In this document: piece after piece, positions 2,949-50,335 of the stretch
Layout: every line of letters begins with the position of its first letter
How positions within the stretch are numbered: the stretch's first letter is position 1
NCBI RefSeq assembly: GCF_023703775.1
Contig: NZ_CP098514.1
Location: 2,391,998-2,455,997, forward strand
DNA: 64,000 bases
Reading direction: 5' to 3'
Source: Haloplanus sp. GDY1
GTDB lineage: Archaea; Halobacteriota; Halobacteria; Halobacteriales; Haloferacaceae
Made by a program: the position numbers and the translations under genes
The notes under the pieces: generated by a model
Databases searched by the model: none
The model's input: only the letters and a program-made list of their open reading frames with translations
Told to the model about the DNA's origin: nothing

Positions 2949-3707
2949 GTGACGCCATCCACGTCCGCTCCCGACGACGCCGCCCCCGACGACGCCGCCC
3001 CCGACGACGCCGCCCCCGACGACGCCGCCCCTGACGACGCCGCCCACGACGACCCGCCGATCCTCCTGTTCGACATGGACGGCGTGCTCGTCGAGGGACG
3101 CGGCACCGACGAGACGGTCCACGAGCGCGCGCTCGACGACGCCATCGCAGAGCGCGGCCTCGACGTCGACCCCGAGACGCGGGCCTTGCTCTCCGGCTAC
3201 GAGTACGACGCCGACTTCGCACGCGGCTGTGCCCGCCTCGGCGTCGACCCCGTCGCCTTCTACGGCCTGCGGGAACGCCACGGCGAGCGCCGGGTCATCG
3301 ACCGGCTCGAATCGGGGGTCCGGACGCTCTACCCCGACGCGACGGTCGTCCAGGAACTCGCCGAGCGATACACCGTCGGGGTGGTCAGCAACAACTACGA
3401 CGGGGTCGTCCGGTTCGTCGTCGACCACCACGGCCTCGACGCGTTCGCACACGTCCGTGGCCGCGACACCGGCGTCCGCGGGTTCTACCGTCGCAAGCCC
3501 GACCCCCACTACCTCCTCGATGCGCTGGACTCGCTCGGCGGAGCCGACGGCTGCTACGTCGGCGACCGTGGCACCGACTTGCTCGCGGCGACCCGAGCGG
3601 GGCTGGATCCCGTCCTCGTGCGCCGACCGCACAACGACGGGCTGGTGCCTCCCGTGGAGCCGACGGTCGAGGTCGACTCGCTGAGCGCGCTCGCCGACCG
3701 GCTCTGA
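2949..3707 (+). CDS. HAD-superfamily hydrolase with PDDAA-repeat N-terminus
   Basis: 252-residue HAD phosphatase. The nucleophile motif I is LLFDMDGVLVEG (residues ~38-49). Motif II is VVSNN, the motif III Lys lies in YRRKPDPHY, and motif IV is YVGDRGTDLLAA. The cap resembles phosphoglycolate-phosphatase-like HADs. Starting with GTG 2949, the first 36 residues are dominated by five PDDAA repeats encoded by a 15-bp tandem repeat, an acidic spacer not found in the catalytic fold. It sits seven bases after phnE2, so it is probably co-transcribed and could dephosphorylate an imported organophosphorus compound or its product. No Schiff-base Lys signature of phosphonoacetaldehyde hydrolase was recognised, so the substrate is open. 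Confidence 0.82.
   Translation: MTPSTSAPDDAAPDDAAPDDAAPDDAAPDDAAHDDPPILLFDMDGVLVEGRGTDETVHERALDDAIAERGLDVDPETRALLSGYEYDADFARGCARLGVDPVAFYGLRERHGERRVIDRLESGVRTLYPDATVVQELAERYTVGVVSNNYDGVVRFVVDHHGLDAFAHVRGRDTGVRGFYRRKPDPHYLLDALDSLGGADGCYVGDRGTDLLAATRAGLDPVLVRRPHNDGLVPPVEPTVEVDSLSALADRL
2970..3044 (+). repeat. 15-bp minisatellite, five units, in the 5' end of the HAD gene
   Basis: The unit CCCGACGACGCCGCC is repeated perfectly at 2970, 2985, 3000 and 3015. The fifth copy (3030-3044) has one C-to-T change and a degenerate sixth copy follows. The period is a multiple of three, so each unit adds PDDAA without breaking the frame. Arrays this perfect commonly change copy number by slippage. Confidence 0.95.
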
Positions 3708-48361: not shown

Positions 48362-48946
48362 TCACTCCGACCGCGGCTCGTCCTCCAGCGGGTAGTCGAG
48401 ACCGCTCGGGTACTCGCTCTCGGCCGTCGTGTCGAGTTCCAGCGCGATACAGAACCGGTCCAGCCCCACTTCGAGGCCGGCGAACAGCAACAGCTCTACG
48501 ACCTCGGCGGCCGTGTACTCCGTCCGGAGCGCCTCGAACTGTTCCTCGGTGAGCCGGTGGGGGTCCTCGGCGAACCGCTCGGCCAGGCGGACGGCGAGAT
48601 ACGTCCGCCGGTCGAGCGCGTCCTCGTCGACGGTGCCGAAGACCGCCGCCTCCGTGGGTGCGATCCCGTCGCGAACCGACAGCGTCCGGACCGTCGCACA
48701 GTACGTACACCCGTTCACTTCGGCGATCTTGAGGCGCATCAGTTCGAGCAGTTCCGCGTCGATGCCCTCGCTCCGCGGGAACGCTCGAAACACGTCGACG
48801 ATCCGCTCGAAGATCGTCGGCGTCCACGCCATCGCGCCGAAGAACGCGCTGTCCCCGTACCAGTCGTCCGCGGCCGCCTCCAGCAACTCCGCGGCCCGTT
48901 CGTCGTCGACGTCTTCCGGTCGAAGGCTGTCCGGTCGTCCCGCCAT
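48362..48946 (-). CDS. AhpD/carboxymuconolactone-decarboxylase-like protein
   Basis: 194 residues from ATG 48946. The CMD core has the CxxC redox pair in AEVNGCTYCATVRTLSV (residues ~85-101) preceded by LLELMRLKIA. The downstream acidic helix carries TAAEVVELLLFAGLEVGLDR. AhpD-like proteins use the Cys pair and a His/Glu relay as peroxidase-supporting thiol reductases; the usual His after CxxC is not obvious, so activity is uncertain. The 96-bp tandem repeat lies directly upstream. Confidence 0.8.
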   Translation of the reverse strand: MAGRPDSLRPEDVDDERAAELLEAAADDWYGDSAFFGAMAWTPTIFERIVDVFRAFPRSEGIDAELLELMRLKIAEVNGCTYCATVRTLSVRDGIAPTEAAVFGTVDEDALDRRTYLAVRLAERFAEDPHRLTEEQFEALRTEYTAAEVVELLLFAGLEVGLDRFCIALELDTTAESEYPSGLDYPLEDEPRSE

Positions 48947-49041
48947 GCCCCCCGCTACGGGGTGTTCGCGCAAAAAGCTGGACCAAAAGACCGTCTTCCG
49001 CTACTCGACGCCGTCCTCGAACACGACGGTGCCAGTTCCAC

Positions 49042-49073
49042 CTTTTTGGCGCTCACTGCGTTCGCGCAAAAAG
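49042..49073. terminator. Stem-loop terminator at repeat junction 1
   Basis: CTTTTTGGCGC (49042-49052) pairs with GCGCAAAAAG (49064-49073), one bulged base, around an 11-base loop. T-tracts on both strands make it a possible bidirectional terminator. Confidence 0.6.
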
Positions 49074-49137
49074 CTGGACCAAAAGACCGCCTTCCGCTAC
49101 TCGAAGCCGTCCTCGAACACGACGGTGCCAGTTCCAC

Positions 49138-49169
49138 CTTTTTGGCGCTCACTGCGTTCGCGCAAAAAG
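49138..49169. terminator. Stem-loop terminator at repeat junction 2
   Basis: Same stem-loop as at 49042-49073, exactly 96 bases further on. It lies closest to the aminopeptidase stop and would be the first terminator met by that transcript. Confidence 0.65.
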
Positions 49170-49192
49170 CTGGACCAAAAACCCGCCTTCCG

Positions 49193-50281
49193 CTACTCGA
49201 AGCCGTCCTCGAACACGAAGGTGCCGTTGCGCTGGACGACCTCCCCGTCCACCTCGATGACCGAGTCCTCGGACATGTCGACGATCATGTCGACGTGTTC
49301 GGCGCTCTCGTTGCGCTCGTTTTCCTCGCCCACGGTGTCCTCGTAGGCGTTGCCCACCGCCATGTGGACGGTGTCGCCCATCTTCTCGTCGAACAGCATG
49401 TTGTAGGTGAACTGGTCGATGGAGCGGTTCATCCCGATGCCGAGTTCGCCCAGGTAGCGCGCGCCCTCGTCGGTGTCCAGGATGCCGGTGAGCACCTCCT
49501 CGTTGCGCTCGGCGCTGTGCTCGACGACGCGGCCGTCCTCGAACCGGAGGCGGGCGCCCTCGATCTCCTTCCCCTTCCGGTACAGCGGCATGTCGAAGTG
49601 GACGTCCCCCTCCACCGACTCCGTGACCGGCGCGGTGAACACCTCGCCGCCGGGCAGGTTGTGCTCGCCGTAGTCGTTCAGTGTGGGGTTGCCCGCCACC
49701 GACATGGTGACGTCCGTCTCCGCGCCGCTCCTGATCCGCACCTCGTCGGCACCGTCGAGGATGTCGACCATCCGCGACTGGTGCTCGCGCTGTGCGTCCC
49801 AGTCGAGCGTGACGGCGTCCCAGACGAAGTTCTCGTAGGCCTCGGTGCTCATGCCCGCCAACTGGGCGTGCCCCGAGGAGGGGAACTGCGTGAGACACCA
49901 GCGCGTCCCCAGCCGCTCGTCGAGGACGGGCCGCATCGCGCGGCGGTAGGCGGCGTTGGTCTCGGGGGCAACGTCGCTCTGCTCCGAGACGTTCGGCCCG
50001 CCGCGGGCGATGATCGCGGCATCCGCCTCCTCGTAGAGCGCCAGCTGGTGGGCCGGCGTCTCGAAGTCCTCGTCGTCGCTCGCCCGGAGGTACGCCCGAC
50101 TCGCCCGCTCGGAGTTGTTCAGGTAGACGGGATTGGCCCCCCGGTCGCCCAGCACCTCGTGGAGGGCGACGGCGAGGTCCTCCGCGACGGCAGGCATGCT
50201 CACCACCACGTCGTCACCCGACTCGATCCGCGCCGAGTGGTCCACGATGATCTCTGCGTGCGTGCGAATGCGCGGGTCCAT
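49193..50281 (-). CDS. M29-family aminopeptidase (AmpS/AmpT-like)
   Basis: 362 residues from ATG 50281. The N-terminal half has SARIESGDDVVVSMPAVAED and HEVLGDRGANPVYLNNSERA. The C-terminal half carries the metal ligands of clan MQ: Glu in RLRFEDGRVVEHSAERNEEV, the LGELGIGMNRSIDQFTYNML stretch, and His/Asp residues in ESAEHVDMIVDMSED. It removes N-terminal amino acids with Co/Zn/Mn. The last ten codons are duplicated twice downstream as part of the 96-bp cassette. The EtfD gene ends 54 bases upstream on the same strand. Confidence 0.88.
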   Translation of the reverse strand: MDPRIRTHAEIIVDHSARIESGDDVVVSMPAVAEDLAVALHEVLGDRGANPVYLNNSERASRAYLRASDDEDFETPAHQLALYEEADAAIIARGGPNVSEQSDVAPETNAAYRRAMRPVLDERLGTRWCLTQFPSSGHAQLAGMSTEAYENFVWDAVTLDWDAQREHQSRMVDILDGADEVRIRSGAETDVTMSVAGNPTLNDYGEHNLPGGEVFTAPVTESVEGDVHFDMPLYRKGKEIEGARLRFEDGRVVEHSAERNEEVLTGILDTDEGARYLGELGIGMNRSIDQFTYNMLFDEKMGDTVHMAVGNAYEDTVGEENERNESAEHVDMIVDMSEDSVIEVDGEVVQRNGTFVFEDGFE

Positions 50282-50335
50282 GTGGTGGGGTTCCGCCCCG
50301 GGCGGCAAAGCCTTTCGGAGTCCGACGGCCGGCGG

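Follow-up and report, generated by a model that had tools for sequence, protein, structure and literature searches.

How did the end of one gene come to stand three times in a row ahead of the next gene? The question is raised by a locus of Haloplanus sp. GDY1, in a window of 64,000 nucleotides (the whole stretch of DNA that was analysed; contig NZ_CP098514.1, positions 2,391,998 to 2,455,997), where the last codons of an aminopeptidase gene are repeated between its stop codon and an AhpD-like open reading frame. The reading that we favour, with a modest balance of probability on its side, is that a short haloarchaeal hairpin element, here called E, was placed at gene 3' ends with duplication of the gene tail (X), and that the resulting arrays then turned over.

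The array at the aminopeptidase gene end

TRF reported a tandem repeat at 48964-49225 with a period of 96, 2.7 copies, 96% matches, no indels and a score of 489, which confirms the tandem 96-bp unit of gene tail, stop codon and hairpin with T-tracts described in the first-pass annotation; the runner-up in the window scored 160. The second-strongest array, a 15-bp tandem repeat with 6.3 copies, lies at 2965-3058. Both spacings between neighbouring copies are the same (96 and 96). Read on the minus strand, the order is aminopeptidase gene ending in X, E, 4 nt, X, E, 4 nt, X, truncated E and the ATG of the AhpD-like frame (Table 1). X comprises the last ten codons, TAG and a 10-nt trailer, and it is present in three copies. 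Three stem-loops had been proposed; two of them are complete, with a GC-rich palindrome, and the third is truncated and keeps its first arm only. The suggestion that the copies retain a remnant of the reading frame was borne out, and within the units the frame is interrupted by the TAG stops only (translations in Table 1). Across 48929-49225 the aminopeptidase frame is open into the AhpD-like frame save for the three TAG stops, probably by chance. The AhpD-like frame gave no match in a Pfam search at 1e-3, and its NCBIfam matches (peroxid_rel, 7e-9; ahpD_dom, 0.021) were all under the curated cut-offs.

Table 1. Coordinates of the features at the aminopeptidase gene end (window positions)
Feature	Position	Strand	Remarks
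Aminopeptidase gene (Peptidase_M29)	49193..50308	-	ORF list; Pfam PF02073, E 1.1e-66; repeated tail made up of last 10 codons plus stop
Tail X within the gene: GTFVFEDGFE, TAG, 10-nt trailer	49183..49225	-	
Hairpin element E, copy 1: TTTTTGGTCCAGCTTTTTG-palindrome-CAAAAAGGTGG	49134..49181	-	family pattern
Tail copy 2: GTVVFEDGFE, TAG	49087..49129	-	begins 4 nt past GGTGG
Hairpin element E, copy 2	49038..49085	-	
Tail copy 3: GTVVFEDGVE, TAG	48991..49033	-	
Truncated third hairpin	48961..48989	-	first arm only
Downstream AhpD-like ORF	48362..48946	-	ORF; ATG at 48946, 14 bp from truncated hairpin

When the whole genome was searched with the 96-bp unit, matches were obtained at the three adjacent places of the array only, and genome-wide dispersal of the unit was rejected. 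A search for plasmid relatives gave no match. The hairpin without the rest of the unit has one further copy at another locus of the same genome. The concern that the repeat might be an unrelated dispersed element applies to one part of it: the unit is not dispersed, and its hairpin belongs to a class-wide dispersed family. An assembly artefact or a chance repeat is almost certainly not the explanation, because the copies differ from one another and similar arrays with units of other lengths occur at the same and at other genes in independently assembled genomes; the high TRF score also stands against it, and no point in its favour was found. The period of the array, a multiple of three, had been thought to allow in-frame addition of repeats, but this is not a rule, since start-to-start periods at the different loci are 96, 93, 92, 89, 87, 81 and 136 nt. 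Copy number differs across sister species, among which losses of arrays are also seen. At the window's own locus a clean empty site was not found among the species compared, and the downstream genes vary between species.

A dispersed hairpin family and the gene tails beside it

The hairpin, TCCAGCTTTT-palindrome-AAAAGGTGG, represents a widespread family. A pattern in which only the two arms were fixed (TCCANCTTTT, 12-42 free bases, AAAAGGTGG) matched 54 of the 148 genomes of the taxonomic family (16/28 genera), and a pattern with the G fixed matched 77 of the 292 genomes of the class (33/77 genera); the reversed control patterns gave 0 matches. Among the matches listed in a scan of named genomes were Haloferax, Halogeometricum, Halobellus, Haloprofundus, Halegenticoccus, Halobium, Halorientalis, Halomarina and others, together with many scattered bacterial genomes, which look like chance because the collection scanned is so large. 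E is common in haloarchaea and apparently unnamed.

E is a short, dispersed, imperfect palindrome. Whole-element z-scores take in the arms fixed by the search pattern and core-only z-scores are fairer; on their own, 56 (DNA parameters) or 63 (RNA) of the 117 distinct cores fold at z < -2. Judging from its sequence, the core may hold tandem sheared G.A pairs. For whole elements the F strand gives the more stable structure in 136/136 (DNA) and 126/136 (RNA) cases, a bias that comes mostly from the fixed arms. The bias is smaller in the cores alone (67 vs 29 with DNA and 71 vs 41 with RNA parameters, of 117), and strand-specific structure was not relied on. Mean core similarity is 0.729 between orthologous copies, 0.567 between different loci of one genome and 0.541 between non-orthologous copies of one genus. 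Orthologous cores (0.73) are more alike than cores at other loci within one genome (0.57), so nothing points to recent spread within genomes, and homogenisation of the stems among the loci of one genome, which had been suspected at a few g11 loci, is unsupported by the same figures.

Ten E loci searched against Rfam gave 0 matches at the gathering score. In IMG/VR, searched with the strict pattern only, there were 36 matches, on contig pieces with a GC content of 0.24-0.55; by eye none has a GC-rich palindromic core, and a viral origin of E finds no support in these matches. REPs are moved by a Y1-type transposase. Unlike REPs, E is not associated with Y1_Tnp: PF01797 was matched in 38/54 E-positive genomes vs 103/148 genomes overall (Fisher p = 1), and 16 E-positive genomes are without any PF01797 match, which leaves dependence of E on this transposase unsupported.

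For the tail repeat, the 220 nt before and after E were compared in 136 distinct copies from the fetched loci, after removal of elements less than 150 nt from the end of a locus and of copies whose flanks were identical. A direct repeat across E with a score of at least 16 was present in 49 of the 136 copies (37 loci) vs 2.2% of the swapped-flank controls, and one with a score of at least 25 in 46 copies vs 0.5%, the controls including some orthologous pairs. With few exceptions the repeated sequence is the upstream gene's 3' end, and mostly it includes the stop codon; at L146 it is not clearly a gene tail. Downstream tail copies begin 2-9 nt past GGTGG in 45/49 cases. X has a median length of 40 bp (quartiles 34-53 nt), and its left edge is variable, with 7-120 nt between the end of X and TCCAG. 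With gene direction assigned by a codon-position heuristic, not by annotation, the upstream gene lies on the E strand in 47/49 copies, both exceptions falling inside one array (L191). The tail copy is the rule of one E arrangement and not an accident. The L191 array (G078:C2:11000-15200), at a restriction-modification-like gene, packs five copies of E into about 2 kb and has several tail repeats.

Judged from translations, the host genes include those for aminopeptidase, radical SAM protein, pheT, ilvD, sufS, pta, etfA, radA, thiolase, gatA, a heme-binding protein and a restriction-modification-like protein, plus one tRNA tail; Pfam checks covered M29, radical SAM, PTA and the SufS-like aminotransferase. 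Genes for tRNAs may be hosts as well, because at L168 and L065 E adjoins, by eye, duplicated tRNA 3' ends.

Filled sites, empty sites and the origin of the arrays

At sufS of Haloferax, G107, G139 and G129 have both E and an X copy, and G136 has a scar. G089 has E but lacks the X copy, as does G142, where the element has suffered an internal deletion; E is absent from G125, G145, G117, G121, G054, G133, G148, G074 and G112. Flanks were compared for two of the three filled sufS species (G129, with a rearranged array, was left out) and for six filled pta species (G112 and G133 were left out). In G107, whose two 63-bp X copies are identical, the flank past the distal copy is 0.77-0.96 identical to all six empty relatives compared, whereas the flank past the gene's own tail gives 0.41-0.43, the level of unrelated sequence. 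The signal is weaker in G139 (0.60-0.66 distal vs 0.39-0.45). At pta, where most Haloferax have E or a decayed form of it, all six filled species compared with the clean empty G145 gave 0.64-0.94 for the distal and 0.40-0.44 for the proximal flank. Because the downstream copy carries the flank of E-free relatives, the hairpin and the extra tail appear to have been added together, before the old tail; relative to the empty state, the added block as read from the alignments would be X + E, ahead of the old X and its flank. The direction of this change is one that we infer, since X-X recombination could later have removed E and left a clean empty site, and exact loss through the two X copies would also fit some of the empty sites.

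These flanks bear on a rather unlikely alternative, namely that E is a native, non-mobile terminator hairpin at which replication pauses, so that template switching to the gene tail creates tandem duplications at the foot of the hairpin. It would account for the constant position of the junction, for the presence of tandem arrays at given genes in many different species and for the age of the arrays, those at the radical-SAM gene looking old because the junction GGTGGGACTGGGAC is common to species of two genera (g1 and g6). However, duplication of X-E should put E beside the old flank, and instead X adjoins it, as in the empty relatives; the conserved arms at unrelated genes would in addition require a spreading step. 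It is improbable, too, that the array is kept by selection as a set of serial terminators insulating the downstream gene. T-tracts are present in every copy, as set by the search pattern, and T stretches terminate transcription in Haloferax volcanii (PMC7237163), but copy number is variable and arrays are lost in sister species, and the final unit of the array, itself truncated, is so close to the next ORF start (14 bp) that little space is left for a separate promoter. Serial termination gives no reason for the copying of the gene tail or for its abutting the hairpin foot at many unrelated genes, and it leaves unexplained why E-free relatives carry the flank found past the downstream copy.

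The placement of E with duplication of the tail, which we prefer, is grounded in direct observation of the family, its anatomy, the flanks at empty sites and the co-evolution of the tails. Short non-coding E elements would be placed into gene 3' ends in an event, presumably an insertion, that duplicates the last ~25-75 bp of the gene and yields gene-X, E, X and the old 3' flank; the gene would keep its codons and stop because the event left a duplicate of its tail. X-E-X would then presumably recombine or slip between the direct repeats to form arrays of 2-4 units, and the same recombination could contract arrays, even to a clean single X, and homogenise the coding tail with its non-coding copies. 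With T-tracts on both arms E is a plausible two-way transcription terminator, an activity suggested by analogy with the work on H. volcanii, and it may therefore be tolerated or useful at gene ends. The best reading of E would be that of a formerly mobile element. Several points stand against this explanation: the wide range of X lengths and the shifting left edge, unlike the fixed target duplication of an ordinary transposase; the 87/136 copies without a tail repeat; the lack of any sign of recent within-genome spread; the lack of association with the Y1 transposase; the weaker flank signal at sufS of G139; and the tail copies of G001 described below. A more far-reaching version is possible, though we find it doubtful: a class-wide mobile element that spares its host gene would enter the last codons of housekeeping genes and preserve codons and stop by duplicating the tail, and the long-lived array would keep rewriting C-terminal codons and stop through turnover between coding and non-coding copies.

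The tail copies were compared with their own genes in two cases. For radical SAM (11/12 genomes of the genus, 7/11 with copies; G008, in which the gene spans the contig start, was left out) the copies differ by 1.36/30 nt from their own gene vs 3.84 from the genes of other species (permutation p 0.00045). For pta (13/15 Haloferax genomes, 8/13 with copies; G125 and G142, in which the gene is split or incomplete in the matches, were left out) the corresponding values are 0.89/21 nt vs 3.15 (p 5e-5), both p values being rough because related species were treated as exchangeable. At pta of G112 and G133 even a change of amino acid (QEE to QNE) recurs in the non-coding copy. Because the copies match the gene of their own species best, the arrays seem to turn over and to rewrite the gene end. 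Concerted evolution by repeat exchange would be the simplest reading of these sequences, the alternative being repeated fresh duplication at the same nucleotide. In the radical-SAM array of G001 (L319), the tail copies differ from their own gene at 4/30 sites and equal the gene tail of G011, as if the gene, not the copies, had been replaced.

If the preferred reading is true, E targets gene ends, and protein-coding 3' ends evolve together with non-coding copies. The arrays would then offer a testable case of concerted evolution at the C-terminus of a protein; they might also serve Haloferax genetics as a natural terminator module and point to a DNA-joining mechanism with a long, variable target duplication.

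Related elements and a second arrangement

Diversity-generating retroelements consist of a gene 3' end, a hairpin and then a copy of the gene end. E resembles them in this layout but differs in that no adenine-directed pattern was seen by eye in the aligned copies. Integrative elements use gene 3' ends as att sites, and the duplicated tail restores the gene end. The same restoration is found with E, and a tRNA gene is affected as well (L168), but an integrase would not fit into the whole insert of roughly 60-150 bp, and each gene has a different duplicated sequence. With its range of duplicate lengths (quartiles as above), E is also unlike classical MITE or IS elements with a fixed short target duplication.

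REP and REPIN sequences are short dispersed hairpins, and in E. coli some of them lie no more than 15 nt from a stop codon (PMC12306157); E likewise is a short dispersed hairpin near stop codons. The words 'Tandem', 'duplicat' and 'Halo' are absent from the text of that source. PATE, SMR and MITE of Haloquadratum are, like E, small, palindromic, transposase-free haloarchaeal elements (PMC3119063). The MITEs have terminal repeats related to known transposons, and PATEs and SMRs are reported without target duplications, those described often targeting other mobile elements (PMC3119063); unlike PATE and SMR, E sits at gene 3' ends and has a tail duplicate flanking 49/136 copies (87 without). Terminators of H. 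volcanii have T-tracts just 3' of the gene, some with hairpins, and E shares the T-tracts directly past the gene and the hairpin; the H. volcanii motif is a T stretch followed by C (PMC7237163), whereas the T-tracts of E are mostly followed by G. The text of this source is without 'Repeat' and 'palindrom'. A literature search covering openly licensed papers found no description of E or of tail copying, which is weak evidence of absence.

Many of the copies without a tail repeat have a different neighbour. In 38 of these 87 copies an opposite-strand gene has its stop codon within 20 nt of GGTGG (within 7 nt in 34/38, where it stands 0-7 nt before CCACCTTTT), gene direction again being assigned by the codon-position heuristic; examples are L102, L103, L150, L153, L158 and L162. 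A tail copy on the far side was present in 0 of the 38 examined, the scores being 7-14 vs 8-13 for the reverse-complement control. The opposite arrangement often continues into a second hairpin, and convergent genes can each carry one E, which gives an inverted structure of several hundred bp. On the 3' side of sufS in G089 (L336) and G142 (L337), E adjoins the stop codon of a convergent gene and not a tail copy, and G142 keeps only the two ends of E.
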